Below, one piece after another: positions 15,342 to 63,870 of a stretch of DNA of 64,000 nucleotides. The notes below the pieces were generated by a model. The model was not told where the DNA came from. It did not search any database and saw nothing but the letters and a program-made list of their open reading frames with translations. Origin of the DNA: Planotetraspora phitsanulokensis (GTDB lineage Bacteria > Actinomycetota > Actinomycetes > Streptosporangiales > Streptosporangiaceae); the NCBI RefSeq assembly GCF_016863295.1, contig NZ_BOOP01000004.1:248001-312000 (forward strand). The letters are read 5' to 3'. Every line of letters begins with the position of its first letter. Positions within the stretch are counted from its first letter, which is position 1. The position numbers were made by a program, and so were the translations under genes.

Positions 15342-15342
15342 C

Positions 15343-16338: not shown

Positions 16339-16387
16339 TGCCGACGACGGCCGTACGAGCGATTCACACGACCAAACGGAGAACACC

Positions 16388-18742: not shown

Positions 18743-18750
18743 GGACGCCT

Positions 18751-18792
18751 CGGGTCGCCCGCCGGCGCCTGGTCCCGCCGGCGGGCGACCCG
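18751..18792. terminator. 17-bp hairpin between convergent operons
   Basis: A perfect 17-base-pair stem (18751-18767 with 18776-18792) with an 8-base loop starts 9 bases after the GH3 stop and ends 34 bases before the stop of the convergent LLM gene. It has no T tract and probably serves both operons. Confidence 0.8.
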
Positions 18793-18825
18793 ACTCCTAG
18801 CCGGCCACCGCCGGGTTGTCGTGTG

Positions 18826-19698: not shown

Positions 19699-19834
19699 GT
19701 ACCCCTCTGCCTGGCGGGGCGGCCGGACCGCGGTTCCACACCCGGGCCCTGGCCCGCCCCCGCCGAAATCGACTGCGCAGTGTCTCACAAATCGCGCATT
19801 CGATGGCAGGCCGGACGTCAACCGGCCGACGAGG

Positions 19835-20836
<1,002 letters not shown>

Positions 20837-20896
20837 TGCAGCAATGTCCCTTATCGGAGGAATCAGCGTGTCCAGCATGCCGTCCGGCACGAACCG

Positions 20897-23322: not shown

Positions 23323-23476
23323 GGTGACTCCTTGGCGCTGCTTACCGGTGCGACGGGCACGGGGACGGGATGACGACGGCCGGGGGGCACGAGAATAGGC
23401 CGCGAGTTACGGAAGTGTCGCCGGGCTGCCGCGACGGCCGGAGAGCTGGCGGCCGTCGAAGCGCGACGGCGGGCTG

Positions 23477-48567: not shown

Positions 48568-48610
48568 CAGCGCACCTCGCACGCGCCGCCCGGGCGCGTT
48601 CCTGTGACGT

Positions 48611-50194
48611 TCACGACAGCGTGACCTCCTCGGCCGGGTCGAGCAGCACCTCGGCGGCCATGGCGCGCAACTCGACGCGGCGGATCTTGCCGGTGGCCGT
48701 GGTGGGATAACCGTCGACGAAGATGATCTTGCGTGGGCGTTTGAATGACGGCAGGCCCGCGCGGCAGAACTCGACCAGCTCGCTCTCACCGGCCGAGCGG
48801 CCCTCGCTCAGCACGACGTACGCGACGGGCTTCTCCAGGCCGTCGCCGTCACGCGCGGCGACGACGACGGCCTGGGCGACCGCCTCGTGCGCGAGCAGCC
48901 GGTTCTCGACCTCGGCGGGCGAGACCCAGATGCCGCTCGCCTTGAGCATGTCCCCGGTACGGCCGAGGCAGGTGTAGTAGCCGTCGGCGTCCCGGACGTA
49001 GGTGTCGCCGGTGCGCAGCCATTCGCCCTGGAAGACCTGCCGGGAGGCCGCGTAGCGCGACCAGTATCCGGTGGCGGTGGACTCGCCGCGGACGAACAGT
49101 GTCCCCGGGGTGCCCACGGGCGCTTCCCGCCCCTCGTCGTCGAGGATGCGCAGGTCGTAGCCGGGCACCGCGACGCCCGTCGTGCCCGCTCGTACGCCGC
49201 CCGCGCGGTTGGACAGGAAGATGTGCAACATCTCGGTCATGCCGATGCCGTCCAGGATGTCGACGCCGAAGTGCGAGGTCCACCGCTGGTAGAGGGCGGC
49301 GGGCAGGGCCTCGCCCGCCGAGGCGCACAGCCGGACCCCGCCCAACGCGTCCGGCGGCAGGCCCGCGCGCAACATGTTCGCGAAGAACGTCGGCCCGGCG
49401 AAGAACAACGTCGCGCCGTACTCGCGGGCGCGTCCGGCCAGTGTGTCGGGCCGTGAGGGCGCGCCTTCGAGGATCGCGGACGCGCCCACCGCCAGGGGGA
49501 AGAGCACCGAGTTCCCCAGCCCGTACGCGAAGAACGCCTTGGCGGCCGACAGGCACCGGTCGCCGGGGCGGATGCCGAGGACCTGGCCGCCGTAGGTCTC
49601 GCACACCACGCGGATCGATCCGTGCCGGTGCATCGCGGCCTTCGGCGTCCCCGTGGTGCCGGACGTGTAGAGCCAGAAGGCCGGCGAGTCCGCGCTGGTC
49701 GGGTAGACCACGTCGCCGGAACCGTCGTCCGGGAGGTCGCCGAGGAAGTGGACAGGAACGCCGGCCTCGGCCTCACGGACGGAGCCGCCCTCCCGGACGA
49801 GCATTCCGGTCAGTTCTGGGGCGTCAGCGGCGGCCGCCACGGCGACCTCGGCGTATTCGGGCGAAAACGCCAGTAACCGCGCCCGCGAGTCGCGGAGCAA
49901 CTCGGTCAGGCCGTCGGCGTGCGACATCGTGGAGACCGGCACCGGCACGGCGCCGATGCGCATGGCGGCGAGGAACACCACGACGAAGTCGGGCGAGTCC
50001 GCCATGAACATCAGCAGCCGCTGCTCGGGCAGCAGGCCGATGGCGCGCAGCCCGGCGGCGGTGCGCCGGACGCGGTCGTGCAGCTGGGCGTAGCTGACGT
50101 CTCCCTGCGCACCGGTCAGCGCCAGGCGCTCGCCGTCCCCCCGGTCGATGTGCCGGTCGAGCAGGTACGTGCAGGCGTTGAACAGATCGGTCAT
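48611..50194 (-). CDS. Benzoate-CoA ligase family AMP-forming enzyme
   Basis: 527 residues. The ATP motif is YTSGTTGTPKAAMHRHG; the AMP motif TGVAVPGYDLRILDDEG and the hinge LRTGDTYVRDADGYY follow; the C-terminal lysine lies in YPTTATGKIRRVELR. The segment AKAFFAYGLGNSVLFPLAVGA matches benzoate-CoA ligases. It activates benzoate to benzoyl-CoA, the substrate of BoxB. Directly after boxB with a 16-base gap. Confidence 0.88.
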   Translation of the reverse strand: MTDLFNACTYLLDRHIDRGDGERLALTGAQGDVSYAQLHDRVRRTAAGLRAIGLLPEQRLLMFMADSPDFVVVFLAAMRIGAVPVPVSTMSHADGLTELLRDSRARLLAFSPEYAEVAVAAAADAPELTGMLVREGGSVREAEAGVPVHFLGDLPDDGSGDVVYPTSADSPAFWLYTSGTTGTPKAAMHRHGSIRVVCETYGGQVLGIRPGDRCLSAAKAFFAYGLGNSVLFPLAVGASAILEGAPSRPDTLAGRAREYGATLFFAGPTFFANMLRAGLPPDALGGVRLCASAGEALPAALYQRWTSHFGVDILDGIGMTEMLHIFLSNRAGGVRAGTTGVAVPGYDLRILDDEGREAPVGTPGTLFVRGESTATGYWSRYAASRQVFQGEWLRTGDTYVRDADGYYTCLGRTGDMLKASGIWVSPAEVENRLLAHEAVAQAVVVAARDGDGLEKPVAYVVLSEGRSAGESELVEFCRAGLPSFKRPRKIIFVDGYPTTATGKIRRVELRAMAAEVLLDPAEEVTLS

Positions 50195-50210
50195 TGCACA
50201 CCGTCCGGCT

Positions 50211-51638
50211 TCAGGCGAGGTGGACGTAGTCGTAGTCGAACGGCTTGCCGTTGATGCCCTGACGTGGCGGCGCGATCCAGGCCGCGATCTTCCCCCGCTC
50301 GTGCACCGGCCGCATCAGCGAACGGACGTGGGTCTTGTCGAGGTCGGTGGGCAGCCAGGCGCCCTTACGCCGCTCCCACTCCTCGACCGGGAGCAGCTCT
50401 CCCTCGGGGGTGACCTCGATGCCGGAGAACGCGCCGACCCGCCGGTTGAACGCGGTGTGCGGCAGGTGGAGCCGCTGCGGCAGCCCGGCTTCCTCCAGGA
50501 TCCTGTTCCACCGGTTGACGCCGTTCTGGCAGTCGCGGATGTACTCGCGGCGCAGGTCGCTGTTCAGCCCGACGAGCGCCGACACCTCGGTCTGGCCGAT
50601 CCGGCCGTCGACGACCGCGTCCACCATCATCGAGTCGTCGGTCAGGCGGTGGTCGTCCCGGCGGCGCTCCTCCGACCAGCGCCCCTTCAGTCCGGCGGTG
50701 AAGTAGTTGGCCACGTTGGTCGAGGTCTCCGACCCGAACAGGTCGAGCGACACCGAGTAGTGGAAGTTCAGGTACTTCTGGATCACGTTCAGCGGGATGC
50801 CGCCGAGGCCGCCGACGTCGTCGGTGTCGTGCTCCAGCATGAGCTGCGCGGTCCGCTCGACGACGCGGTCGATGCCGGTCGTCCCGACGAACATGTGGTG
50901 CGACTCCTCCTTGAGCATGAACTCGCACGTGCGCGACAGCGGATCGAACGCGCTCTCCTTGAGGGTGCCGAGCTGGTACTTCCCGTCCCGGTCGGTGAAG
51001 TAGGTGAACATGAAGAACGACAGCCAGTCCGGGGTCTCCTCGTTGAACGCCCCGAGGATGCGGGGGGACTCCTCGCTGCCGGAGTTGCGGTGCAGCAACT
51101 CCTCGGCCTCCTCACGGCCCTCCCGGCCGAAGTACGCGTGCAGCAGGTAGACCATCGCCCACAGGTGACGGCCCTCCTCGACGTTGACCTGGAACAGGTT
51201 GCGCATGTCGTAGAGGCTGGGCGCGGTGGCGCCGAGGTTGCGCTGCTGCTCTACGGAGGCCGGTTCGGTGTCCCCCTGGATGACGATCAGGCGCCGCAGG
51301 TCGGCGCGGTACTCCCCCGGCACCTTCTGCCACACCGGCTCGCCCCGGTGCTGTCCGAAGGCGACGCGGCGGTCGCGGTCGCGTTCGGCGAGGAAGATGC
51401 CCCAGCGGTAGTCCCTCATCGCGACGTGCCCGAAGTGCGCCCAGCCCTCGCGGCCGACGTTCACGGCCGTGCGCAGGTAGACGTCCTCGGTGGGGAGGGT
51501 GGGCCCCATCGACTCCCACCAGGTGAGGAAGTTGGGCTGCCAGGACTCGAGGGCGCGCTGCAGCCGGCGGTCCTCGTGCAGGTCGACGTTGTTGGGGATC
51601 TTCTCGGAATAGTCGGCGGGGGTCGTCAACGGCGTCAC
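50211..51638 (-). CDS. boxB: Benzoyl-CoA 2,3-epoxidase subunit BoxB
   Basis: 475 residues from a GTG that overlaps the boxC stop (GTGA). The di-iron ligands lie in two ExxH motifs, EEGRH (Glu155/His158) and KEESHH (Glu244-His248), with an upstream Glu near 130. Length and motifs match BoxB, which epoxidises benzoyl-CoA with O2. It needs electrons from BoxA, which is not encoded here. Confidence 0.92.
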   Translation of the reverse strand: MTPLTTPADYSEKIPNNVDLHEDRRLQRALESWQPNFLTWWESMGPTLPTEDVYLRTAVNVGREGWAHFGHVAMRDYRWGIFLAERDRDRRVAFGQHRGEPVWQKVPGEYRADLRRLIVIQGDTEPASVEQQRNLGATAPSLYDMRNLFQVNVEEGRHLWAMVYLLHAYFGREGREEAEELLHRNSGSEESPRILGAFNEETPDWLSFFMFTYFTDRDGKYQLGTLKESAFDPLSRTCEFMLKEESHHMFVGTTGIDRVVERTAQLMLEHDTDDVGGLGGIPLNVIQKYLNFHYSVSLDLFGSETSTNVANYFTAGLKGRWSEERRRDDHRLTDDSMMVDAVVDGRIGQTEVSALVGLNSDLRREYIRDCQNGVNRWNRILEEAGLPQRLHLPHTAFNRRVGAFSGIEVTPEGELLPVEEWERRKGAWLPTDLDKTHVRSLMRPVHERGKIAAWIAPPRQGINGKPFDYDYVHLA

Positions 51639-53374
51639 ACTCGCTTCTTGTCGAAGTCGGCGCGCTGCCCGGTGCCGAACTTGCGCAGCGCGCCGTCGGG
51701 GCCGGAGGCGTTGGGGCGGTAGAAGATCCAGTTCTGCCACGCGGCGAGACGGCCGAAGATCTTGGTCTCGATCGTCTCGGGACCGGCGAAGCGGTAGTTG
51801 GCCTCCAGGCCGGTGAGCGCGTCCGGGCTGAAGCTGGCCCGCTCCTCGATCGCCATGCGCACCTCGTCCGCCCAGTCGATGTCGTCGGGGGCGAACGTGA
51901 CCAGCCCGAGCCGCTCGGCGTCCTCCGCCTCCAGCGCCTCCCCCGCGCTCGCCGTGGCCGCGGCGAGCGCGCCGGCGTCTCCCCAGAACCTCGTGCCGAG
52001 GCGGGTCAGGCCGTTGCCCATGGGCAGCGGCCCCAGGTTCATCGGCCCGACGCCGACCGTGGCGGGGTCCGCGTCGGGGTCCGCGCCGGGGTCCGCGTCC
52101 TCGAAGACGCCGGACAACTGGTAGGAGCGGTCGGCCGCCAGCGCCGGCTCCAGGAGCGAGCCGGCGAAGCAACTGCCCGGCTCGATCAGCGCGATGAGGC
52201 TGCGGCTGGTCACGTCCAGCCGTTTGAGCGTGCGCTTGAGGTACAGCACGATCTCGTTGACCAGCCAGTCGCCCGCGTGGTCGAGCAGCAGGGCATCGTA
52301 CGCGAGGACCAGCGCGGGGTCGCCCTTCGTGCGGACGACCCAGGTGCCCAGCTCGGTCTCGTTGGTGCGCAGATCGAGGATGAGGTCGTCGAGCTCCCGT
52401 GTGACGGCGAGCGTCCAGAAGTCCGCGCCCTGCTCGTGGATCCCGGCGACGGTCCGCGGCGGTTCGGCGTCCGGTCCGAGCACGGTGATCTCCGCGCAGC
52501 CGCGCGCTCGGTCGAGGACGGCCGTCACGTGGCGGTAGGAGATCCGGTCGCCGGTCCGCGTCCGGCCCAGCGGGGTGAGCACGACGCCGGGCGCGTCCTC
52601 CGGACGGCCCGACGTCCGTGCGAACGCGGCCGCCCGTTCCGCGACCGTCTCGTCCCATCTGGGCCTGGGCACCACTTCGTCGACGAGCCTCCACTGCACG
52701 GCCTTCCTGCCGCCCACCCCCTCGGACCTGGTGGAGAAGTAGTCCGCGAGGTCGCGCCGCACGTGGCGCTTGTCGACCACCCGGGTCAGGCCGCCGGTCC
52801 CCGGAAGGACGCCGAGCAGCGGCAACTCCGGCAGGGAGACCGCCGACGAGCGGTCGTCGACCAGCATGATGTGCTCGCACGCCAGGGCGAGCTCGTAGCC
52901 GCCGCCCGAGGCCGTGCCGTTCAGCGCGGCGAGGTAGGTCTGGCCCGAGTTGGCGCTCGCGTCCTCCATCGCGTTGCGGGTCTCGTTGGTGAACTTGCAG
53001 AAGTTCACCTTCCAGGCGTGCGGCGAGGCGGCGAGCATGCGGATGTTCGCGCCCGCGCAGAAGACCTTCTCCTTGCCGCTGGTCACCACGACCGTGCGGA
53101 CCCCGGGGTGCTCGAACCGCAGCCGCTGCACCGCGTCGTACAGCTCGATGTCCACGCCCAGGTCGTAGGAGTTCAGCTTCAGCTCGTATCCGGGGACGAG
53201 GCCGCCCTGCTCGTCGACGTCCATGGTGAGGGTCGCGACCGGCCCCTCGACGGACAGGCGCCAGTGGCGATATCGCGACGGGTGCGTCTGGAAGCCGACC
53301 GCCGTCCGCGGACCGGTTTCCCCCTCCGGCCGCACGCCGTCCGGCGCGCTGGACGCCCCTGCCGTGATGGTCAT
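51635..53374 (-). CDS. boxC: 2,3-epoxybenzoyl-CoA dihydrolase BoxC
   Basis: 579 residues from the ATG at 53374 (AGAAGGA upstream); the frame is open to a TTG at 53440. Two fused crotonase-like halves are visible: KEKVFCAGANIRML with NGTASGGGYELALACEH in the first, and ELPLLGVLPGTGGLTRVVDKRHVR. BoxC opens the epoxide ring hydrolytically, releasing formate and an aldehyde-CoA. First gene of the operon, divergent from the PaaX-like regulator. Confidence 0.9.
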   Translation of the reverse strand: MTITAGASSAPDGVRPEGETGPRTAVGFQTHPSRYRHWRLSVEGPVATLTMDVDEQGGLVPGYELKLNSYDLGVDIELYDAVQRLRFEHPGVRTVVVTSGKEKVFCAGANIRMLAASPHAWKVNFCKFTNETRNAMEDASANSGQTYLAALNGTASGGGYELALACEHIMLVDDRSSAVSLPELPLLGVLPGTGGLTRVVDKRHVRRDLADYFSTRSEGVGGRKAVQWRLVDEVVPRPRWDETVAERAAAFARTSGRPEDAPGVVLTPLGRTRTGDRISYRHVTAVLDRARGCAEITVLGPDAEPPRTVAGIHEQGADFWTLAVTRELDDLILDLRTNETELGTWVVRTKGDPALVLAYDALLLDHAGDWLVNEIVLYLKRTLKRLDVTSRSLIALIEPGSCFAGSLLEPALAADRSYQLSGVFEDADPGADPDADPATVGVGPMNLGPLPMGNGLTRLGTRFWGDAGALAAATASAGEALEAEDAERLGLVTFAPDDIDWADEVRMAIEERASFSPDALTGLEANYRFAGPETIETKIFGRLAAWQNWIFYRPNASGPDGALRKFGTGQRADFDKKRV

Positions 53375-53499
53375 GGATCCTTCTCCCGTCACCATGCCGA
53401 CCGTCAGCTCATGCTCCACAGGCATCTTGTGATCCGTCAACCACCTGTAGCATTTTGACGGGAACTTCTACACATCTCCAGCAGGCGGTCAGCCGCCCG

Positions 53500-53505
53500 T
53501 AGAAT
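53500..53505 (+). promoter_or_regulatory. Probable -10 element of the PaaX-like gene
   Basis: TAGAAT, a near-consensus -10, lies 28 bases upstream of the GTG start. No good -35 is seen at the usual distance. Confidence 0.35.
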
Positions 53506-53533
53506 GTCGCGTCGGACGACGGGAGAGGATCGA

Positions 53534-54475
53534 GTGTCGACACCGGCATCCCTGACCACGGCCGACGCCACGGCTGACGCCACCGTCGGCACAAGCGCCG
53601 GCATCACCGCGGACAGCACGGCCACCGCGCCGCCCATTGCGCCGCCCGCGGTGTCGCCCACTGTGTCGCGCAGGCACGCCGCCGGCGCGGAGAGCGCCCG
53701 AGGGCTGTTGTTCACCGTGCTCGGCGAGTTCGTCCTGCCTTCGGGCGGATCGGCGTGGACGTCGGCGTTCATCGACGTGCTCGGCCGGCTGGGCGTCGAG
53801 GAGAAGGCGAGCAGGCAGGCGCTGATGCGCACCGCGGCCGACGGCTGGCTCACCTCGGAGCGGGTGGGCCGCCGCACACTGTGGACCCTGAGCCCGGACG
53901 CGGAGCGGCTGCTCACCGACGGCGCCGAGCGCATCTACGGCTTCCAGGGAATGCAGCGCGAATGGGACGGCGGCTGGCTGCTCGTCCTGGCGCGCGTGCC
54001 GGAGAGCGACCGGCCGACGCGGCACCTGCTGCGAACCCGCCTCGGCTGGGCCGGCTTCGGCAGCCCCGCTCCCGGTGTGTGGATCAGCACCCATCGCGAC
54101 CGCGCGGCCGAGGCGGAACGGGTCCTCGAGGAGGCGGGCGTGCTCGACGAGGCCCAGATCTTCCACGCGGAGCACCGGGCGGGGGAACTGGCGAGGATGG
54201 TCAGGCAGGCGTGGGATCTCGACGCCGTCGAGAGGAGCTACGAGCGGTTCCTCGCCGAGTTCGCGCGACGGCCGTCCCGCGATCCGCTGGTGCGGGTGAC
54301 CGAGCTCGTGCACTCCTGGCGCAGGTTCCCGTCCGACGATCCCGAACTGCCCGGCGAACTGCTGCCCGCACGCTGGAGCGGCGCGCGGGCCGCGAGCCTG
54401 TTCCGGCGGCAGCACGCCAGGTGGACCGCCGCGGCGAGCGCCGAGTGGCGCCGCCTCACCGAGGACGCCGGCTGA
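53534..54475 (+). CDS. PaaX-family transcriptional regulator
   Basis: 313 residues from a GTG with GGGAGAGG upstream. A low-complexity Ala/Thr/Pro extension (about 1-55) precedes the PaaX winged helix (GLLFTVLGEFVLPSGGSAWTS; KASRQALMRTAADGWLTSERVGRRTLWTL) and the C-terminal PaaX domain (LRTRLGWAGFGSPAPGVWIS). PaaX represses phenylacetate genes and is released by an aryl-CoA. Here it is divergent from boxC by 159 bases, so benzoyl-CoA is the likely signal. Confidence 0.88.
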   Translation: MSTPASLTTADATADATVGTSAGITADSTATAPPIAPPAVSPTVSRRHAAGAESARGLLFTVLGEFVLPSGGSAWTSAFIDVLGRLGVEEKASRQALMRTAADGWLTSERVGRRTLWTLSPDAERLLTDGAERIYGFQGMQREWDGGWLLVLARVPESDRPTRHLLRTRLGWAGFGSPAPGVWISTHRDRAAEAERVLEEAGVLDEAQIFHAEHRAGELARMVRQAWDLDAVERSYERFLAEFARRPSRDPLVRVTELVHSWRRFPSDDPELPGELLPARWSGARAASLFRRQHARWTAAASAEWRRLTEDAG

Positions 54476-54518: not shown

Positions 54519-56747
54519 TCAGCTGATCGTGATGCTGTCCAGGTCAGGGGCGTTGGCGGTGTCGTTGTAGAACTTCAGGGTGTTGATGCCGGCGTTCATC
54601 GGCACCGTGACGGTCGTCGTGGTGGGCGAGTCCCAGGTGGTGCCTGTGAGCGTCGCCGTAACGGGCGTCCCGCCGTTGACGCTCACCGAGAACGACCGGG
54701 TTCCGCTCACCTCTCCGGCGATCGTCAACTGCCTGTCACCGGCGGCCGGCATGTTGACGTTGTAGGTCGCGTAGTTGGCGGTGTTGTTGCCGATGAAGCG
54801 CACCTTCGCGCCGCCCGAGCAGCCCGGGCAGGCGTCTGCCCTGGCGGACCCGCTCAGCACGCCGGTCTCCGCCTCGATCGTGACCGGCAGCGTGACACCG
54901 CCACCGGCGCCGTCCTCGGCGATCGGCTCCCCATGGCGGACATAGTGGTTGCCGACCCACGCTTCGTCGATGCGGAGCCGCTTGTACCTGGTGGTGTCGG
55001 TGGAAGCCGCGTAGGTGCTGAGCACCCGCAGGCGGACGTGACGGGCGGTGGTGTGGGGCAGGTCGACGATCTGCACGCCACGCTGGCTGGGCAGTGTGCC
55101 GATCTTGACGGGAGCGCCCCAGTTGACGCCGTCGTCGCTCGCGTACACCTCGTAGTCGCGGATGCGGGCCGACTGCTCGGTCGCCGACCGCGCGTAGCTG
55201 ACGGAGTCCTCACGCTGGTTGAGCCCGATGTACCGCGCCCGGTCGACGTCACCGAGATCGAAGTCGAGCGAGACCGGCAGCGTCTTGTTGTTGTCCCAGT
55301 ACGTCAGGTAGTCGCCGTCACCGGCGGCCGTGGCGTCGTGGCCGGCCGCGGACGCGCTCGCCGTGACCGTGACACCGGGGTACGGCTTGGCACGCCCGTT
55401 CGACGTGACCTTGAGGACCGTGTCGTACGGATCCCATTCGGAGATTCCGGTGATGGCGAGGGTGCCGTTCGACTGGGAGAACTTCAGCTCGGCGCCGGTG
55501 CGCAGGTTGGTGACACTCTTGATCTTGTAGCCGTTGTCGCCCAGCTTCAGGGTGGTGGTCCCGGTGGGCGGCGTCACCACGTGGATGTAGTGGAGGTTCG
55601 GGTCCGTCCGGCTGATCGTGGTGACGCCGTGGGCGCCGTCGTTCCAGCCGCCCGGCTCGAGCCCGCCGTACATGTATCCGCCGCCCTCGACCCCGTTCAG
55701 CGACTCCCAGATCTGGTCGAGGTAGTCGTCGGCGAAGTTGTTGAAGGCCTCCTGCTTGGGCGGGAAGTGGCCGTTGACCATGGCCTGCTCGTCCATGAGC
55801 GCCTTGACCGAAGATCCGACGTTGGTGATCAGCCGGCCCAGCGAAACCCGGTAGTCGACGGACGGGTCGACCCCGTCGTACCACCAGTTGCCGGTCGTGG
55901 GGAGCTTGAAGTCGGCCTCGGTGAGCCGCGGCTGCGCCGTGTAGACCGCCTGGGGGTAGTCGTACGACGGCGTCATGCCGGTCTTCTGCTCGTTGCTGAC
56001 CATGTCCATTTCTGGAGTGTCTTCGTTGTTGTTGCTGAGCGTGTAGTTGGGCCGCAGCTGGTGGATCTGCTCGTACAGGTGGTTCCGCTCCCAGTACGCG
56101 TTGTCGTTGTCGATCCAGAACCCGCCGAGGTCGGGGTAGCGCTTCATGACCTCGAAGAAGTTGTCGTAGCTGAACTCGCCGAAGCCGTCACGGGTGGTGA
56201 TGTCGACGTCGTGCCCCTTGTATGCGGAGTACGCCGCCGAGTCGAGCCAGCTTCCGGACGTGAGGCCCTGCGTGTGCCACTGCGGGTCGTCGGTCATGTA
56301 CAGGATGACCTTCATGCCCCGCGGCTTGGCCGCGTCGACCAGTTCACCGAGGAAGTCGCGCTTGGTGCTGCAGCTGCCCGGGATGGCGGACGGCCACGGC
56401 CGCGCGTAGCCGAGGCGGCTGTGGAACGTGGCGAGCACGATGTACTGCGTGTGCAGCTTCTGCGCCTCGTCGAGCCAGTAGTCGGGGGTCCAGCCGCCGT
56501 TGGTGACGTCGGCCTCCCACTGGGCGCAGTCGGTGTGCTGCGGCGCGGTGCGCTCGCCCCAGTGCAGGAACAGTCCCCCGACCGAACTGCGGAGGAACTC
56601 CTGACGCGGATTCTGGAGATCCGCGCGGGCGGGACCGACCGTGATCATGTTCAGGACGAGGGCGACCATCGCGGCGACAGCCACCGCGACCGTGCGCCGC
56701 CTTCGTCTCGTCATCCGATCGCCGTCGCCGGATAAGGCGTTGACCAT
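54519..56747 (-). CDS. Secreted GH29-like (alpha-L-fucosidase-type) enzyme with discoidin and CBM domains
   Basis: 742 residues. The signal peptide (RRRRRTVAVAVAAMVALVLN) is cleaved near ARADL. The catalytic domain resembles GH29: GLFLHWGERTAP (62-64 HWG), and GGFWIDNDN with Asp213 in the nucleophile position. The usual KHHDGF motif is replaced by ATFHSRLGYARPW, so it is a divergent branch. An F5/8-type discoidin domain (about 450-605) and a beta-sandwich carbohydrate-binding domain (about 625-742) follow. GGAG precedes the ATG. Two GTGAGCGCTCAC palindromes lie upstream. Activity on fucosides is inferred, not certain. Confidence 0.78.
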   Translation of the reverse strand: MVNALSGDGDRMTRRRRRTVAVAVAAMVALVLNMITVGPARADLQNPRQEFLRSSVGGLFLHWGERTAPQHTDCAQWEADVTNGGWTPDYWLDEAQKLHTQYIVLATFHSRLGYARPWPSAIPGSCSTKRDFLGELVDAAKPRGMKVILYMTDDPQWHTQGLTSGSWLDSAAYSAYKGHDVDITTRDGFGEFSYDNFFEVMKRYPDLGGFWIDNDNAYWERNHLYEQIHQLRPNYTLSNNNEDTPEMDMVSNEQKTGMTPSYDYPQAVYTAQPRLTEADFKLPTTGNWWYDGVDPSVDYRVSLGRLITNVGSSVKALMDEQAMVNGHFPPKQEAFNNFADDYLDQIWESLNGVEGGGYMYGGLEPGGWNDGAHGVTTISRTDPNLHYIHVVTPPTGTTTLKLGDNGYKIKSVTNLRTGAELKFSQSNGTLAITGISEWDPYDTVLKVTSNGRAKPYPGVTVTASASAAGHDATAAGDGDYLTYWDNNKTLPVSLDFDLGDVDRARYIGLNQREDSVSYARSATEQSARIRDYEVYASDDGVNWGAPVKIGTLPSQRGVQIVDLPHTTARHVRLRVLSTYAASTDTTRYKRLRIDEAWVGNHYVRHGEPIAEDGAGGGVTLPVTIEAETGVLSGSARADACPGCSGGAKVRFIGNNTANYATYNVNMPAAGDRQLTIAGEVSGTRSFSVSVNGGTPVTATLTGTTWDSPTTTTVTVPMNAGINTLKFYNDTANAPDLDSITIS

Positions 56748-56788
56748 GAGGAACTCCTTCGAGCCTGCGATCTCGACTGTCTTGTGTC

Positions 56789-56812
56789 GCCCCCGTGAGC
56801 GCTCACGGGGGC
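56789..56812. promoter_or_regulatory. LacI operator A, 24-bp perfect palindrome
   Basis: A perfect 24-base palindrome centred on GTGAGCGCTCAC, 42 bases upstream of the GH29-like start. Three copies of the core surround the LacI gene at 57089. Confidence 0.85.
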
Positions 56813-56871
56813 TTTGCCGACGACCTTCACCATCTCCGGGATCCGCGTCGGCGCGTGCGACCCGGCTGGCC

Positions 56872-56889
56872 GCCGTGAGCGCTCACGGC
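56872..56889. promoter_or_regulatory. LacI operator B, 18-bp perfect palindrome
   Basis: GCCGTGAGC-GCTCACGGC, the same core, about 80 bases from operator A and 200 bases before the LacI gene. It could serve repression of the GH29-like gene or autoregulation. Confidence 0.85.
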
Positions 56890-57088
56890 AAGCTTTTCGG
56901 ATCGCAAAGATTGGATCTGTGGACTGTGATCCCACACAAACGAGGCGACTGTCAACGGTCAGGCGGGGCGAGAACTCGCGGAGATGACCACGCATACATC
57001 GGATGTGTGAGGTCACGCGGCCTTTCAGATCTCATCCCTGTGAGCCGCCCGATACGCCGAAGGCGTCCAGGGAGGTTACAGTCCCAAC

Positions 57089-58099
57089 GTGCCGACCAAC
57101 AGAAAACCTCGGGTCACCATCGACCAGGTGGCGCAGGCGACCGGAGTCTCCCGCCAGACCGTGTCCCGGGCGATCAACAACAAGTCCGAGATAGATCCCG
57201 AGACCCGCCGGCGGGTCCTCGACGCGGCCCAGGCGATGGGCTACCGGCCGAGCCGGTTCGCCCGGGGCCTGGTCCGCCAGGATCTGATCACCGTCGGACT
57301 GGTCATCGCCGACGTGCTGAACCCGTTCTTCCCCGAGGTGACGGCGGGCGTGCTGGAGGCCGCAGAACGCCGCGGCTGGCAGGTCGTCGTCTACAACACC
57401 GGCTCGGAACGCCGCAAGGAACTGGAAGTCGTCGACATGCTCTTCGACCAGGTGGACGCGGGCGTGGCCTTCCTGCTCCATCACGAGGCGATCGCCAAGG
57501 CGACGGCCGGCAACCTCCCGTTCGTGCTGCTGGACAAGGGCGGCAGGGCCCCCGCGGTGCCCGGCGTGCGGATCGACTTCGAGGGCGGGGCACGGCGGGG
57601 CCTGGAGTACCTGATCGACCGGGGACACCGCCGGATCGCGATGCTGGACGACGAGGCGTACCTGTCGGCCGAGGCGCAGAACACCCGGCGCGAGCTGTAC
57701 CTCAAGGTGATGGGCGAGCACGGGATTCCGGTCGACGTCGACTGGATCCAGCCCGCGCACAACTCGATCGACGGCGGCGCGGCGGCGATGGAGCGGCTGC
57801 TGTCGGCGCACCGGGACGTCACGGCGGTGTTCGCCTACAACGACCTGATCGCCATCGGCGCCCAGTTGCGGGCCCGCGCGCTCGGCCTGCGCGTGCCGGA
57901 GGACTGCGCGTTCCTCGGCTTCGACGGACTGAGCATCGGCGAACTCGTGGAGCCTCCGCTGACCACGCTCCACATCGACAAGCGCCGACTGGGCGAGATC
58001 GCCGTCGAACAGGCGGCGCTGCTGCTCGGCGGCATGAGCGAGGACGAGATCCCCGAGGCCGTTATCGAACCGCAACTGGTCGTGCGGGCCTCTGCCTGA
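57089..58099 (+). CDS. LacI-family regulator of the GH29/GH36 regulon
   Basis: 336 residues. The HTH is VTIDQVAQATGVSRQTVSRAI (about residues 9-29), with the hinge ETRRRVLDAAQAMGYRPS. The sugar domain includes DRGHRRIAMLDDE and NDLIAIGAQLRARALGLRVPEDCAFLGFDG. It stands between the secreted enzyme and the importer operon, with its operator type (GTGAGCGCTCAC) before both. No strong Shine-Dalgarno (GGGAGG, about 19 bases away). Confidence 0.92.
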   Translation: MPTNRKPRVTIDQVAQATGVSRQTVSRAINNKSEIDPETRRRVLDAAQAMGYRPSRFARGLVRQDLITVGLVIADVLNPFFPEVTAGVLEAAERRGWQVVVYNTGSERRKELEVVDMLFDQVDAGVAFLLHHEAIAKATAGNLPFVLLDKGGRAPAVPGVRIDFEGGARRGLEYLIDRGHRRIAMLDDEAYLSAEAQNTRRELYLKVMGEHGIPVDVDWIQPAHNSIDGGAAAMERLLSAHRDVTAVFAYNDLIAIGAQLRARALGLRVPEDCAFLGFDGLSIGELVEPPLTTLHIDKRRLGEIAVEQAALLLGGMSEDEIPEAVIEPQLVVRASA

Positions 58100-58109
58100 T
58101 CACTCACTC

Positions 58110-58115
58110 TTGACA
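58110..58115 (+). promoter_or_regulatory. -35 element of the GH29/ABC/GH36 operon
   Basis: TTGACA, with AAGAAT/GAATGT-like -10 candidates 15-17 bases on. Operator C lies immediately downstream of the -10 region. Confidence 0.55.
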
Positions 58116-58143
58116 TTCGCGGTCTGTTGGAAGAATGTCTCTC

Positions 58144-58157
58144 CGTGAGCGCTCACG
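58144..58157. promoter_or_regulatory. LacI operator C
   Basis: CGTGAGC-GCTCACG, the same core as operators A and B, about 23 bases before the GTG start of the intracellular GH29-like gene. Confidence 0.85.
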
Positions 58158-58179
58158 TGAGCGGTAACGAGGGAGTGTC

Positions 58180-59484
58180 GTGATCCGGCGGAATGAGCTC
58201 GTCCAGGCCTCCGGCGCCGACCTCGCCGCTCTGGCCCTCAGCCGCCAGGCGTGGCTGAGGGACGACGTGATCGGCCTGTTCCTCCATTGGGGCATGCGCA
58301 CCTCGCCTCCGTTCACGGACGTCCGGGCCTGGGAGGACCGGGTCACGGCCGACGGGTGGACCGCGGACCACTGGATCGACCGGGCCGTCCAGCTGCACGC
58401 CGGCTACGTGGTGCTCGCGTCGTTCCACAGCCGGCTGGGCTACGTCCGCGCGTGGCCGTCGGAGATCCCCGGCAGCCCCGCCACCCGGCGGGACTTCCTG
58501 GGGGAGCTCGTCGCGGCGGCCGCATCCCGGGGCCTTAGAGTCCTGCTCTACATGACCGACGACCCCAAGTGGCACGACGAGGACGGCCTCGGGTCCCTCG
58601 ACTCGGCGGCCTACTCCGCGTACAAGGGCAGGCCCGTGGACCTGACCACCCGCGACGGATTCGGGGAGTTCGCCGCCGACAACTTCGCCGAGGTCATGCG
58701 GCGTCATCCGGATCTGGCGGGGTTCTGGATCGACAAGGAGAACGCCCACTGGAGGCGGAGCGGCCTCTACGACCGGATCCGGGCGGAACGGCCCGGCTGG
58801 ATCCTGGCCTGCAACGATCCGGACATACCGCCCGGGGACACGGCCATGGACGTGGTCGTTCCCGGCCTCGCCGCGGACGGGCCGCTTCCGCGCGTGGCCG
58901 AATCCGCCTTCACCGTCGCCGGCGGCTGGTGGTACGACGGCTCGGATCCCGAGGTCGACCACGACCGGGTCGTCAGGCGGATCGTCGCCAACGCCGGCTC
59001 CTCCACCAGGTCGCTGCTCGGGTTCGGGTCGCGGCACGGCGGCCGGTTCACGCCGAACCAGGAGGCGTTCTGCGACTTCGCGGCGTCCTACCTGGAGGGC
59101 ATCTGGGAGTCGCTCGGCGGGACCGAAGGCGGTCGCCGCCCCTCCCCCGCCGACGTACGGCCCGGCCCCGCCACCGAGGTCACCGTGCGCGGGGACGATC
59201 CGGACCGGCGCTACATCCATGTGATCGGCCGGCCGGCCGACGACACGGTCCGTGTCCGTGACGACAGCCGGCACGTCATCGAGGTGCGCGACCTGCGCAC
59301 CGGTCGGAGCATGCCGTTCGAGCAGTCGGACGGCCGTCTCACCATCAGCGGGATCACGACCTGGGACCCGCACGACACCGTGCTCGCGCTCAGAACTGCC
59401 CGCTCAACGTCGGGGACCGCTTCGCCGCGTCCAGCGGCGTCAGAAAACACCCCTCATCACTCATCGGAAGGCACATCGTCATGA
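58180..59484 (+). CDS. Intracellular GH29-like paralogue
   Basis: 434 residues from a GTG with GAGGGAG upstream, without a signal peptide. It is colinear with the catalytic domain of the secreted enzyme: GLFLHWGMRTSP (HWG 36-38), ASFHSRLGYVRAW, YMTDDPKWHD and GFWIDKENAH with Asp185. It lacks the discoidin and carbohydrate-binding parts and should act on imported oligosaccharide. Its end overlaps the solute-binding protein start (ATGA). The last 30 residues look unstructured. Confidence 0.8.
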   Translation: MIRRNELVQASGADLAALALSRQAWLRDDVIGLFLHWGMRTSPPFTDVRAWEDRVTADGWTADHWIDRAVQLHAGYVVLASFHSRLGYVRAWPSEIPGSPATRRDFLGELVAAAASRGLRVLLYMTDDPKWHDEDGLGSLDSAAYSAYKGRPVDLTTRDGFGEFAADNFAEVMRRHPDLAGFWIDKENAHWRRSGLYDRIRAERPGWILACNDPDIPPGDTAMDVVVPGLAADGPLPRVAESAFTVAGGWWYDGSDPEVDHDRVVRRIVANAGSSTRSLLGFGSRHGGRFTPNQEAFCDFAASYLEGIWESLGGTEGGRRPSPADVRPGPATEVTVRGDDPDRRYIHVIGRPADDTVRVRDDSRHVIEVRDLRTGRSMPFEQSDGRLTISGITTWDPHDTVLALRTARSTSGTASPRPAASENTPHHSSEGTSS

Positions 59485-60773
59485 AGCACAAAGCTTTACT
59501 GACGGCTCTCGTCACGACCATGGTGGCCGGCGCGTGCAGCGTCGGCGACCAGCAGGCCCCGCAGTCGAGCGGCGGCACGGCCAAGAAGGAGATCAGCTTC
59601 CTGGTCTTCGAGACCCCGAACCTGACGCCCCAGGTGTGGGACGCGGCGATCAAGCGGGTGACCGACAAGTACCCCGACATCTCGGTGAAGAAGCTGGTCG
59701 CCCCGAGTGAGGACCGGGTGTCCTACGCCAAGCAGCTCCTCGCCTCCGGCCAGTTCCCCGACGTGATGATCGCGGTCTCCCCCGCCGGGTTCGCCGAGAG
59801 CGGCGCCATGGCCGCCTTCACCCCCGACGAGCTGAAGGACTTCGACTTCCCGAACAACGGCGCGGTCCAGGGCAAGATCTACCAGCTGCCCACCAACACC
59901 CAGACGATCCCGGTCGTCTACTACAACAAGGACCTGTTCGCCAAGGCGGGGATCAGCGCTCCGCCGAAGACCTACGCCGAGCTGCTCGACGCCGCCGCCA
60001 AGCTCAAGGCGAAGGGCATCACGCCGTTCGTGATCGGCGGCGGCAAGGACCCCTTCGCCTCCACGCTCGCCTGGACGGCCACGATCGCCACCGACGTGTA
60101 CGCCAAGACCCCCGACTGGATGGCCAAGCGGCGGGCCGGGAGCGTGAAGTTCACCGACCCGGACTTCAAGAAGGCCACCGAGAAGTTCGCCGAGCTCGCC
60201 AAGCAGGGCTACATCGACAAGAAGGACGTCTCGCGCGACTACGCGGCGACCGAGCAGGCCTTCCTCGACGGCAAGGGCGCGATGTATCCCATGGGCAACT
60301 GGTTCGCCGCGGCGGGCGACGACCCCAAGCGCAAGCCCTCATGGGAGATCGGCGCGTTCAACTGGCCGACCGACGACGGCGGCGTGGTCGTGCCCGCCTT
60401 CACCGGCGGCGGCCTGTCGGTGAGCGCCACGGCCAAGAACCTGCCCGAGGCCAAGAAGTTCGCGCTGGCGTACACGCTCGACCAGACCAACCTGGACGCC
60501 TCCGTCCACAACGACGGGCTCTACCCCGCGATCAAGGGATACACGCCCCCGGCCGACACCGGCGCGGTCTTCAAGCTCGGCTACGACCTCTACCAGGAGG
60601 GCGTGAAGAGCAACACCGTCACCCAGGCGTTCAGCTGGGAGGCCGGCGACGACGGCATGCTACCCGGCGTGGTCGACAAGTGGCGGGCGGGCGCCCAGGA
60701 CCTCATCACCGGCAACAAGACCGTCGACCAGGTGCTGGCCTCCCTCGACGACGAGTGGGCCAAGGCGTCCTGA
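59481..60773 (+). CDS. Extracellular sugar-binding lipoprotein of ABC importer
   Basis: 430 residues. The lipobox is VAGAC with Cys19. A class-1 solute-binding fold follows (ISFLVFETPNLTPQVWDAAIKR; YYNKDLFAKAGISAPPKTYAEL; FLDGKGAMYPMGNWFAAAG). It overlaps the GH29-like gene by 4 bases and is followed by two permeases. The likely ligand is the fucosyl or galactosyl oligosaccharide processed by the operon's hydrolases. The ATPase is elsewhere. Confidence 0.92.
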   Translation: MKHKALLTALVTTMVAGACSVGDQQAPQSSGGTAKKEISFLVFETPNLTPQVWDAAIKRVTDKYPDISVKKLVAPSEDRVSYAKQLLASGQFPDVMIAVSPAGFAESGAMAAFTPDELKDFDFPNNGAVQGKIYQLPTNTQTIPVVYYNKDLFAKAGISAPPKTYAELLDAAAKLKAKGITPFVIGGGKDPFASTLAWTATIATDVYAKTPDWMAKRRAGSVKFTDPDFKKATEKFAELAKQGYIDKKDVSRDYAATEQAFLDGKGAMYPMGNWFAAAGDDPKRKPSWEIGAFNWPTDDGGVVVPAFTGGGLSVSATAKNLPEAKKFALAYTLDQTNLDASVHNDGLYPAIKGYTPPADTGAVFKLGYDLYQEGVKSNTVTQAFSWEAGDDGMLPGVVDKWRAGAQDLITGNKTVDQVLASLDDEWAKAS

Positions 60774-60776
60774 CCG

Positions 60777-61721
60777 ATGGCAGTCGACGTCAGGACGACA
60801 TCCGTCCCCGCCTCCGCGACCCCCGGGTCGCGGAGGCCCCGCCCGCCGTGGGCGCAACGACTGCGGTCGTTCGCGCTGTTCGGGGCGCCGGGACTGCTCG
60901 TCTACACCTGTTTCGTGCTCGCGCCGATCGCGATCAGCTTCGGCTACAGCCTCACCAACCACAACCCGTTCAACCCCCCGACCAGGTTCGTCGGCCTGGA
61001 GAACTACCGGCTGCTGTTCACTGACAGCGAGTTCCTCACCTCGCTGCGGGTCACCACGATCCTCACGGTCATCGTGGTGATCGTGCCGAACGTGGCCGGG
61101 CTCGGCATCGCCGTCCTGCTCGACCGCAAGGGATGGCTCTACAACGCCCTGCGCACGGTGTTCTTCACCCCGATGGTGCTCAGCTCGGTGGTCGTGAGCA
61201 TCGTGTGGACGCGCATGCTGGACGACGAGGGCCTGTTCAACCAGGCGCTGCGGGCCCTCGGGGTGGATCAGCCGCCGGGCTGGCTGTCCGATCCCCGGCT
61301 CGCGCTGTACTCGATCGCCGTCATCCTGTCCTGGCAGATGCTCGGCTTCTGCGTCGTGGTGTACCTGGCCGGGCTGCAGGGCGTGCCCAACGAGCTGGCC
61401 GAGGCCGCGGCCATCGACGGCGCCGGTCCGGTGCGGCGGTTCCGCTCGATCACCTGGCCGCTGCTCGCGCCCTCGCTGACCATCAACACGGTGGTTCTGC
61501 TCATCACCGCGTTCAAGATCTTCGACCACATCCAGGTGATCACGCACGGCGGCCCCGGCACCGGGACGACCGCGACCATCGCCTACGACGTCCTGCAGAC
61601 CGGCCTGGTGGCCAACCGGCAGGGCTACGCGTCCGCGATGGCCATCGTGATGCTCGTGATCATCGCGGTCGCGGCCGGCGTCACGCTCCGGATCCTCAAC
61701 CGCCGGGAGGTGAACCTGTGA
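60777..61721 (+). CDS. Carbohydrate ABC transporter permease (MalF type)
   Basis: 314 residues with about six membrane helices. The EAA loop reads EAAAIDGAGPVRRFRSITWPLL, the cytoplasmic ATPase docking site. Starts 3 bases after the binding-protein stop. Its TGA overlaps the next permease's GTG (GTGA), so the two subunits are coupled. Confidence 0.92.
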   Translation: MAVDVRTTSVPASATPGSRRPRPPWAQRLRSFALFGAPGLLVYTCFVLAPIAISFGYSLTNHNPFNPPTRFVGLENYRLLFTDSEFLTSLRVTTILTVIVVIVPNVAGLGIAVLLDRKGWLYNALRTVFFTPMVLSSVVVSIVWTRMLDDEGLFNQALRALGVDQPPGWLSDPRLALYSIAVILSWQMLGFCVVVYLAGLQGVPNELAEAAAIDGAGPVRRFRSITWPLLAPSLTINTVVLLITAFKIFDHIQVITHGGPGTGTTATIAYDVLQTGLVANRQGYASAMAIVMLVIIAVAAGVTLRILNRREVNL

Positions 61722-62548
61722 AGGACGCCCGCCTGCCGTGGTTGCGGCCGGTCGTCGCGCTCGTCGTCAGCGCGTTCTTCCTCGTGCCGCTCTACATGAT
61801 CCTCGTCAACGTGTTCAAGCAGGGCGAGAAGATCACCCAGTCGCCGGCGTCCCTGCCGGCACCGCCCACCCTCGAGAACATCACCGGGCTGCTCACCCGC
61901 ACGGACAACCTGTTCTGGGCGAGCCTGTCCAACAGCATCCTGGTCACCACGCTGTCGATCATCCTGCTCACGGTCCTGTCGGCGATGCTCGGGCACTTCC
62001 TCGCGCGCTCGCGCAGCAGGTGGGCGAGGGTGGCCATGCTCCTGCTGCTGTCCGGCCTGATGATCCCGCCACAGGTCATCCTCATGCCGATCACGCAGGT
62101 GCTGAGGGCCCTCGGCCTGATGACCACCCTGCAGGGCCTGGTGTTGTTCAACGTGGGGTACTACATCCCGTTCGGCGTGTTCGTCTTCACCGGGTTCCTG
62201 CGCGGAATCCCGATCGAGCTGGAGGAGGCCGCGGCCATCGACGGCGCGAGCCGTTCGCGCATCTTCTGGCGCGTGGTGTTCCCGCTGCTGCGGCCCGCGA
62301 CCGCGAGCGTCCTGATCTTCCTGGGCGTGTGGATCTGGAACGACTTCATCGATCCGCTGGTCATCCTCGGCCCGTCCCAGGGGACCACGATCACCACCGG
62401 CATCTACCGGTCCATCGGCCAGTACCAGGCCGACTTCGGCACGGTCTTCGCGCTGATGTTCCTGGCCACGCTGCCCGTGCTGATCTTCTACCTGTTCTTG
62501 CAGAAGCACTTCGTCAAGGGCCTCACGGGAGGAGCCACCAAAGGATGA
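61718..62548 (+). CDS. Carbohydrate ABC transporter permease (MalG type)
   Basis: 276 residues from a GTG with GGGAGG upstream; the larger open frame before it only shadows the other permease. The EAA loop reads EEAAAIDGASRSRIFWRVVFPLL; the C-terminus FLQKHFVKGLTGGATKG is typical. Its stop overlaps the GH36-like gene start (ATGA). Confidence 0.92.
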   Translation: MKDARLPWLRPVVALVVSAFFLVPLYMILVNVFKQGEKITQSPASLPAPPTLENITGLLTRTDNLFWASLSNSILVTTLSIILLTVLSAMLGHFLARSRSRWARVAMLLLLSGLMIPPQVILMPITQVLRALGLMTTLQGLVLFNVGYYIPFGVFVFTGFLRGIPIELEEAAAIDGASRSRIFWRVVFPLLRPATASVLIFLGVWIWNDFIDPLVILGPSQGTTITTGIYRSIGQYQADFGTVFALMFLATLPVLIFYLFLQKHFVKGLTGGATKG

Positions 62549-63870
62549 TTTTTCATCCGATCGCCGAGATCCCGGTCGATCCGGCACGCGGGCTGGTGCA
62601 CGCGCACGGCTGGCAGAGCTGGACGCCGACCACGGCGCTTCCCGTCGGGGGCCGCGGCTTCCAGCCGGTGCAGCAGGTCATGCAGACGATGCGGTACCGG
62701 CCGGGTCTCCCCGCCCCCGCCGACGGGTTCCAGGGCGAGGGCCTGCTCGCGGTGGCCCCCGACCCGGACGGCCCGGTACGGCTGTTCGCCGCCAGGGACG
62801 GCCTGGCGACGGTCCCCTCGATCCGGGCCCGTCTGGTGGGCGACCAGATGGTGATCACGGCCGACCGGCCGGACGAGGTCGTCGAGAAGACCTTCCCCGG
62901 TCCGCTCGACGTCGCGCTCGGCGCGTGGGCCGACGGCTTCGCCGCCGAGGCGGGAACGGGTCCCCTGCGCAGACCGCCCACCGTGTGGTGCTCCTGGTAC
63001 CACTACTACGAGGACGTCACCGAGGCCGACGTCCTGGAGAACCTCCGGGCGGTGGGCGAACACGACCTGCCGGTCGACGTCGTCCAGATCGACGACGGCT
63101 GGGAGGCCGAGATCGGCGACTGGCTGACGCCGTCGGGGCGCTTCTCCTCGATTCCGGAGACGGCCGCGCGCATCCACGCCGAGGGCAGGCGCGCGGGGCT
63201 GTGGCTCTCGCCGTTCCTGGTCGGGGCGCGCAGCGAGGTCGCCCGCCGGCATCCCGAATGGCTGGTGGGCGACGCCGGCCACAACTGGAACCAGGACCTG
63301 TACGGTCTCGACGTCACGCACCCGGGCGCGGCCGCCTATCTCCGTGAGGTCTTCCAGACCCTGCGCGGATGGGGATTCGACTACTTCAAGCTCGACTTCC
63401 TCTACGCCGGCGCGCTGGCCGGGCCCCGGCATTCGGGCGCCTCGCCGATCGCGGCGTACCGCGAGGGGCTGGCGCTCGTCCGCGAGGCGGCCGGGCCGGA
63501 GCCGTACCTGCTGGGCAGCGGCGCCCCCATCCTGCCGAGCGCCGGGCTCGTCGACGCCATGCGCGTCTCCCCCGACATCGCCGCGGCGTACGACGCGGGA
63601 ACGGGGGACCTGTCCGACCCCTCGCAACAGGCCGCCGCGCTCTCGACGACCGGCCGGTCCTGGCAGCACGGCCGCCTGTGGGTGAACGACCCGGACTGCC
63701 TGATCGTCCGCCCCGCCGTACAGCGCCGCGAGGAGTGGACCGCGACCGTCGAGCGGTTCGGCGGGCTCCGCGCGACCTCCGACCGGATCGCGGACCTCGA
63801 CGACTGGGGCCTGGAGACCACCCGTCGCGTGTTGTCCTCGGTGCCTCCCGCGACCCCCTTCACACCGTAG
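62545..63870 (+). CDS. GH36-like alpha-galactosidase (short form)
   Basis: 441 residues from the ATG at 62545 (GGGAGGAG upstream). The catalytic barrel is clear: WCSWYHYYEDVTE, QIDDGWE, the nucleophile Asp284 in YFKLDFLYAG and the acid/base Asp344 in RVSPDIAA. It is much shorter than usual GH36 (about 700) because the N-terminal beta-supersandwich is reduced. No signal peptide: it cleaves imported alpha-galactosides. Last gene of the operon. Confidence 0.85.
   Translation: MIFHPIAEIPVDPARGLVHAHGWQSWTPTTALPVGGRGFQPVQQVMQTMRYRPGLPAPADGFQGEGLLAVAPDPDGPVRLFAARDGLATVPSIRARLVGDQMVITADRPDEVVEKTFPGPLDVALGAWADGFAAEAGTGPLRRPPTVWCSWYHYYEDVTEADVLENLRAVGEHDLPVDVVQIDDGWEAEIGDWLTPSGRFSSIPETAARIHAEGRRAGLWLSPFLVGARSEVARRHPEWLVGDAGHNWNQDLYGLDVTHPGAAAYLREVFQTLRGWGFDYFKLDFLYAGALAGPRHSGASPIAAYREGLALVREAAGPEPYLLGSGAPILPSAGLVDAMRVSPDIAAAYDAGTGDLSDPSQQAAALSTTGRSWQHGRLWVNDPDCLIVRPAVQRREEWTATVERFGGLRATSDRIADLDDWGLETTRRVLSSVPPATPFTP

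Follow-up and report, generated by a model that had tools for sequence, protein, structure and literature searches.

The 64,000-nucleotide stretch of the Planotetraspora phitsanulokensis genome analyzed here (contig NZ_BOOP01000004.1, positions 248,001 to 312,000; hereafter the window, whose own numbering is used below) encodes two glycosidases that have the fold of glycoside hydrolase family 29 (GH29) and that form part of an outlying clade, recovered to date from Actinomycetota only. Enzyme A (742 amino acids; 54519 to 56747, minus strand) is probably secreted, and enzyme B (434 amino acids; 58180 to 59484, plus strand) is probably intracellular. Both carry an FHSRLGY motif in place of the GH29 segment KHHDGF. 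We propose, with about even confidence, that the pair works by double displacement and trims an alpha-L-fucose-like residue from a rhamnogalacturonan-type polymer under LacI control.

The two proteins share 46.8% identity across 451 residues. An earlier note, made from the sequence of this stretch alone, had described a pair keeping HWG and FWID with FHSRLGY in place of KHHDGF, and both open reading frames were confirmed at the coordinates it gave, with these motifs in place. In A, HWG lies at residue 62, FHSRLGY at residues 108 to 114 (56406 to 56426, minus strand), and FWID at residue 210, ending in Asp213; in B, the corresponding positions are 36, 82 to 88 (58423 to 58443, plus strand), and 182, ending in Asp185. 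FHSRLGY is preceded by AT in A but by AS in B, and the consensus is accordingly (T/S)F rather than (A/S)F as first written. In the profile alignment with ordinary actinobacterial GH29 proteins, ATFHSRLGYA stands over TAKHH-DGFA. The motif is thus one residue longer, through an inserted Arg. It retains the first His and the Gly of the GH29 segment, and the remaining positions are substituted: Phe for Lys, Ser for the second His, Leu for Asp, and Tyr for Phe. FHSRLGY is invariant in all 44 aligned members of the clade and, in a later set of 40 Streptomyces loci, occurs in the single motif-bearing open reading frame at every locus (40/40), and the motif shared by A and B is therefore not a chance likeness.

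Absence of KHHDGF characterizes A, B, and the whole clade, as the earlier note had it for the pair, but it does not serve as a strict marker against GH29 membership. The His-His pair of this segment is present in 22 of 26 ordinary actinobacterial GH29 proteins, a figure that leans toward typical members, and the other 4 lack it as the clade does. These 26 were obtained with a motif-based script, itself leaning toward typical members, which gave a protein for 29 of 45 loci; three were dropped, 26 were aligned, and 13 were included in a tree.

Profile search and structure prediction both place A and B on GH29. Each passes the cutoff of the Pfam family PF01120, Alpha_L_fucos (39.0 bits for A and 41.3 bits for B, against 25.2), with best stretches covering profile positions 93 to 331 (A) and 88 to 339 (B) of 345. 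These scores are far below those of ordinary actinobacterial GH29 proteins, which reach 397 bits, and no NCBIfam fucosidase family was matched by A or B at E values up to 1. A profile built from the 44 clade members matched GH29 structures with an E value of 1.7e-11 and, in a profile-profile comparison, the 26 ordinary actinobacterial proteins with a probability of 99.7 and an E value of 2.5e-25 over 361 columns. AlphaFold models were obtained for residues 42 to 465 of A (55353 to 56624, minus strand; predicted local distance difference test [pLDDT] score 87.8, predicted template modeling [pTM] score 0.88) and for B (pLDDT 82.0, pTM 0.83). The best fold match of the A core was 8ozu (Z 33.5, root mean square deviation 2.8, 356 aligned residues) and that of B was 9eu4 (Z 33.2, root mean square deviation 2.8, 354 aligned residues), both models matching the catalytic barrel and C-terminal beta-sandwich of solved GH29 structures. 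GH29-B-type folds scored lower, with Z values of 23.4 (A) and 23.9 (B) for 6org (SpGH29) and 22.7 (A) and 23.2 (B) for 3ues (B. infantis).

A new fold or a family other than GH29 was considered and rejected, as the 50 matches listed for each model carry titles that name fucosidases, members of GH29, BpGH29, or ClAgl29; the sole exception, 8ayr, has a title (sialidases and fucosidases) that does not name the family. A and B are thus glycosidases with a GH29 fold. A place for the pair outside GH29 is contradicted by the Pfam cutoff passed and by the match to GH29 crystal structures over the two-domain core. The closest known systems are GH29-A-type fucosidases (AlfB, 8ozu and 9hyj; 9eu1 to 9eu4; B. 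thetaiotaomicron, 2wvv and 4jfw), which share with A and B the two-domain fold over the whole core, the position of the Asp nucleophile, HWG, the first His of the pair, and the Trp two residues before the nucleophile. However, identity to these enzymes is only 15 to 20%, and the clade of A and B is separate in the tree.

In a tree of 44 clade members and 13 ordinary actinobacterial GH29 proteins, the clade formed one side of a branch with a Shimodaira-Hasegawa-like approximate likelihood ratio test (SH-aLRT) value of 100. At the drawn root, the branch measured 2.57 changes per site on the side of the clade and 0.21 on the other, and six B-type rows formed a branch of their own (98). The tree was a quick one, computed without bootstrap. 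The undescribed GH29 subfamily suggested earlier thus stands as a separate and coherent clade with an altered motif, but one that remains within GH29 by fold and profile.

The pair could nevertheless be ordinary alpha-L-fucosidases, a fast-evolving branch of GH29-A that still releases L-fucose from plant or soil glycans and in which the motif change reshapes a single loop. The Pfam result agrees with this, as do the top fold matches, which include AlfB and 9eu1 to 9eu4 (titled GH29A), and the ordinary GH29 proteins lacking the His-His pair; the tree tool also flagged long branches and an odd letter composition in the row of B and in L031. On the other hand, the 2.57 changes per site exceed any branch drawn among the 13 ordinary rows, and a seven-residue motif with an inserted Arg in every member examined looks like a constrained functional change. 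We regard this explanation as doubtful.

Matches to the clade (E value 0.001, those below 1e-100 being counted as strong) were found in 13 of 150 genomes of the taxonomic family of the window species (10 strong), 7 of 394 of its class (5 strong), 9 of 396 of its phylum (only the window's own strong), and 56 of 295 Streptomyces genomes (38 strong). A contig scan recovered 24 loci, all from Actinomycetota by title; it used peptide patterns taken from B, so that distant forms elsewhere could be missed. No relative of A was detected at an E value of 1e-5 among 72,556 plasmid records. The nearest named relatives of B are from Planotetraspora, with 89% identity over the best segment in P. kaengkrachanensis, whose locus coincides with one in G125, a genome of the same genus as the window genome.

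Residues invariant in all 44 members comprise HW, FHSRLGY, Tyr109 of the A core (strand 105 to 110), the Trp two residues before the predicted nucleophile, the nucleophile Asp itself, and a Glu. The predicted nucleophile is Asp213 of A (56109 to 56111, minus strand), which follows model strand 168 to 171, and Asp185 of B (58732 to 58734, plus strand), the last residue of model strand 181 to 185. The invariant Glu is Glu277 of A (55917 to 55919, minus strand), located after model strand 233 to 235 and aligned with the Glu of the GH29 motif WE...SWGY, and Glu241 of B (58900 to 58902, plus strand), located in model strand 238 to 245; in the models, both are found at the strand expected for beta6. 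Another Glu, residue 212 in the A core, stands over that of the GH29 TPE motif, to which we presume an acid/base role belongs. This position is Glu in 38 of 44 members and Val in 6, B included, and Glu277/Glu241 is therefore the better acid/base candidate. The position of Asp213 and Asp185 at the end of beta4 in the models is that given for the GH29 nucleophile, and the acid/base residues of GH29-A align poorly by sequence, according to the same source (PMC10154630).

That the proteins are degenerate or noncatalytic copies is very improbable, as the candidate catalytic residues are invariant throughout. Such decay would be in keeping with two observations among relatives. The B-type proteins of L029, L032, and L033 have lost most of the C-terminal sandwich (approximately B residues 338 to 404), while staying in frame and retaining roughly the last 30 residues, and a third clade gene of P. 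silvatica (L006, 13532 to 15316) is broken across several frames, while it is one open frame in L005 and L007.

Two residues of the predicted -1 subsite favor a fucose-like sugar. In the GH29 enzyme E1_10125, His61, Trp72, His114, His115, and Tyr162 are described as forming hydrogen bonds with fucose, with Phe59 and Trp219 forming a methyl pocket (PMC7872956). By position, the clade appears to keep the His of HWG, a Tyr, and the first but not the second member of the His-His pair, together with both putative methyl-pocket residues, namely the Phe two residues before the HWG His (41/44) and the Trp (44/44). Retention of these last two is what favors a fucose-like sugar, and it is also consistent with ordinary fucosidases.

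Alternatively, the -1 subsite may have been altered to take another alpha-L sugar of pectin or gums, such as L-galactose or an O-methylated or acidic sugar, with the inserted Arg contacting the changed group. The replacement of the second His by Ser and the invariant Arg would fit, and an altered sugar specificity is plausible. GH29 is reported to include galactosidase and glucosidase members (PMC10154630), PDB titles describe BpGH29 as an exo-alpha-L-galactosidase and ClAgl29B as bound to L-glucose, and flaxseed rhamnogalacturonan is described as carrying both L-fucose and L-galactose in addition to galactosyl branches (PMC9368198). BpGH29 (7ljj, 7lnp, 7lk7) and ClAgl29A/B (7xsf, 7xsg, 7xsh) show that GH29 is able to change its sugar; they share the GH29 fold with A and B at Z values of approximately 23 to 25, but at 14 to 18% identity and with a weaker fold match than the fucosidases, the comparison being one of folds. 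As the methyl pocket is retained, a change of monosaccharide is put forward only tentatively.

The proposed link to a galacturonate-containing polymer comes from gene neighborhoods. Representatives of five neighbor classes were searched (tblastn, E value 1e-10) in the 40 Streptomyces loci. These come from 45 strong matches, of which G699 and G683 had already been covered as L107 and L108 and three others were left out. GH28, GH105, and GSDH genes were each found at 29 loci, GH27 at 27, and a lyase-like protein (PF14099) at 26. GH28 or GH105 was present at 36 loci, one of which (L196) is included only through a 66-residue GH28 remnant; all of GH105, GH28, GH27, and GSDH were present at 20, and two had none of the five classes. 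The most frequent order was GH105, lyase-like, GH28, clade gene, GH27, GSDH. In contrast, none of 20 control windows, taken at a distance of 200 kb in 19 of these genomes, contained any of the five classes. In a first, wider set, GH28 or GH105 occurred at 18 of 39 loci (38 distinct, L120 being the same as L005; L206 and L208 of the later 40 likewise repeat L019 and L025 of this set), with L023 counted by a short GH28 stretch, whereas neither class was seen at any of 20 loci of ordinary GH29 genes or in any of 20 further windows. LacI genes were also found near ordinary GH29 genes (9/20). Gene calls in relatives were made with a simple GC-based script that produced some wrong-strand calls, and several loci are cut by contig ends. 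One of the two clade representatives also had a tblastn match in a window chosen as a random control in G059 (L151).

In 18 of the 40 loci, a near-complete GH28 (at least 454 of 507 residues) and the clade domain are encoded in one open frame, which in 6 of these also encodes GH27. Pfam recovered all three domains in the four triple fusions scanned of these six and also in L026, and GH28 plus the clade domain in L067. These fusions, the association with GH28, GH105, and GH27, and the shared palindrome described below are the strongest clues to function, all of them missed in the earlier note. Neither the clade nor GH28-GH29-GH27 fusions were found in the titles and abstract openings listed by searches of a subset of the open-access literature, which is not proof of absence.

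The cassette GH105 is YteR-like (1nc5, E value 8.3e-74), and a homologue of this unsaturated rhamnogalacturonyl hydrolase is the first cassette gene in many Streptomyces loci; we know of no GH29-like partner in the B. subtilis YteR system. One GH28 type matches the exo-poly-alpha-D-galacturonosidase 3jur (E value 2.4e-104), and the type of L010, which is found in fusions, has weak matches to solved structures. The lyase-like neighbor has a weak Pfam match (31.3 bits, cutoff 29.9) and no convincing solved relative (best E value, 0.7). Fungal AA12 enzymes are described as oxidizing L-fucose (PMC6881810). A relationship of the cassette GSDH to AA12 was rejected, as its best PDB match was 3das and no AA12-named entry was present among 35 matches at an E value of 1e-8. 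Downstream of the cassette in L109 (15536 to 19501), a LacI gene is accompanied, by eye, by genes for a sugar kinase, a 2-keto-3-deoxy-6-phosphogluconate (KDPG)-type aldolase, and an enolase-superfamily protein, as if for galactonate breakdown.

A and B are joined by a 14-bp palindrome, CGTGAGCGCTCACG, present in three copies: 46 bp ahead of the A start (56794 to 56807), between A and the LacI gene (56874 to 56887), and 22 bp ahead of the B start (58144 to 58157), where a one-mismatch site also occurs in L005, L006, L007, L117, and L119. The chance expectation in the window is 0.11 at no more than one mismatch, and the 9.17-Mb genome contains no exact site besides these three copies. Four genomes of the same genus have 3, 3, 2, and 3 exact sites, all 11 of which lie, by position, no more than approximately 270 bp upstream of a match to the clade. 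We take CGTGAGCGCTCACG to share its 12-bp core with the symmetric lac operator of E. coli. The LacI-family regulator encoded between the divergent A and B genes (57089 to 58099, plus strand; Pfam LacI and Peripla_BP_3) would be predicted to control both by repression. In G108, from the same taxonomic family as the window species, a single exact site lies upstream of a GSDH-GH28-GH28-GH28-clade-GH27 run, and one-mismatch sites lie ahead of LacI and a B operon on another contig. Two exact sites in the Streptomyces genome G1059 are located between a divergent LacI gene and a clade gene. This distribution, G108 included, argues that the two kinds of locus (the A/B pair and the cassette) belong to one probable regulon.

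The G108 sites also bear on whether the GH28/GH105/GH27 link belongs to other lineages, with the window system acting on a different substrate such as an alpha-galactosylated glycan. No match to GH28 or GH88/105, YteR-type enzymes included, was found in the window genome, and in their place the window cluster encodes a GH36-type protein together with an ATP-binding cassette (ABC) importer. Downstream of the window (L065, 4938 to 17437) lies an N-glycan-type cluster, in which a GH85 endohexosaminidase with an F5/8C domain and a GH38 alpha-mannosidase adjoin a LacI gene and what look by eye to be ABC genes. However, in G108 the palindrome stands ahead of the cassette and one-mismatch forms of it stand ahead of LacI and the B operon, and GH28 is found near the clade in non-Streptomyces loci as well (L010, L113, L114, L116, and L118). 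A different substrate class in the window species is on this evidence rather unlikely.

The architecture of the locus suggests how the two enzymes would divide their work. The N terminus of A is, by eye, a hydrophobic secretion-type leader ending ARA-DL, and the catalytic core is followed by an F5/8 type C (discoidin) domain (residues 461 to 577; 55017 to 55367, minus strand; PF00754, E value 1.4e-10). Residues 623 to 728 (54564 to 54881, minus strand) form a CBM35-like domain with a Pfam score of 23.7 bits, below the 28-bit cutoff; PDB chains that we take, in part, to be CBM35-type modules match it with E values of 4.4e-9 (2wz8) and weaker. A is thus probably the secreted protein with discoidin and CBM-like domains described earlier. 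The frame of B opens only four codons ahead of its start and leaves no space for a leader, in agreement with the cytoplasmic location assigned to it before. The term colinear used in the earlier note applies to the protein alignment but not to gene order, as A and B are divergently transcribed. Almost gaplessly downstream of B are genes for an ABC sugar-binding protein (59481 to 60773, plus strand; SBP_bac_1), whose first 4 bp overlap the end of B, two ABC permeases (60777 to 61721 and 61706 to 62548, plus strand; both BPD_transp_1), and an alpha-galactosidase-like protein (62545 to 63870, plus strand; Melibiase; alpha-galactosidase 1zy9, E value 1.2e-65), which we take to belong to GH36. The starts of the second permease and of the last gene were chosen by eye.

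In the proposed scheme, Asp213/Asp185 would attack the anomeric carbon, as in GH29 double displacement, with Glu277/Glu241 as the acid/base, and a terminal alpha-L-fucose-like residue (L-fucose or L-galactose) would be removed from a galacturonate-containing plant polysaccharide of the rhamnogalacturonan type. A would act outside the cell, anchored to the polymer through its F5/8C and CBM35-like modules. B would act inside on oligosaccharides imported by the adjacent ABC system, alongside the GH36-type alpha-galactosidase, and a LacI-family repressor would control both enzymes via CGTGAGCGCTCACG.

Several observations weigh against this scheme. A fold match alone shows no activity, and with Ser in place of the second His, which we equate with a fucose-binding residue of E1_10125, and an Arg inserted, the sugar may not be fucose. 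B could differ in its catalysis, given the Val at the TPE position in 6 of 44 members, and its counterparts in three relatives have lost most of the C-terminal sandwich. The neighbor counts are not independent, many Streptomyces loci being inherited copies, so that P values computed for the association are exaggerated. In addition, of the ten genomes in which the palindrome was sought, four had no exact site although all four carry clade genes. Finally, the window species cannot run the cassette route alone; without GH28 or GH88/105 of its own, it would rely on fragments released by other organisms, or else have a different substrate.

Two further clusters were noted in the window. The first (13402 to 25312) is an oxidative pentose cluster containing a GH3 above the beta-xylosidase/alpha-L-arabinosidase cutoff, a lactonase, an aldo/keto reductase, a Gfo/Idh protein, an aldehyde dehydrogenase, an FAA hydrolase, and a dehydratase close to L-arabinonate dehydratase (862 bits; cutoff, 882). 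L-Fucose catabolism near A and B was considered and found no support, as this sugar oxidation cluster, at 13.4 to 25.3 kb, looks like a pentose pathway. The second (47698 to 54475) is by eye a box-type benzoyl-coenzyme A (benzoate) pathway adjoined by a PaaX-family regulator, identified by profile match.

A bolder reading, to which we give limited credence, is that the clade represents an undescribed GH29-related subfamily or sister family, marked by the invariant FHSRLGY, that removes an alpha-L sugar other than plain fucose (e.g., L-galactose) from rhamnogalacturonan-type polymers. In Streptomyces, its members would form the middle of single-chain GH28/GH29-like/GH27 machines, and in Planotetraspora, they would serve as outside and inside enzymes under one LacI operator. 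Annotation by Pfam would label A and B alpha-L-fucosidases. Through the palindrome, the regulon and its inducer are open to direct tests, and the natural multienzyme chains offer a ready set for assay. Overall, a clade fused to GH28 and GH27 provides a handle on how Actinomycetota may strip side groups off galacturonate-containing plant polymers.

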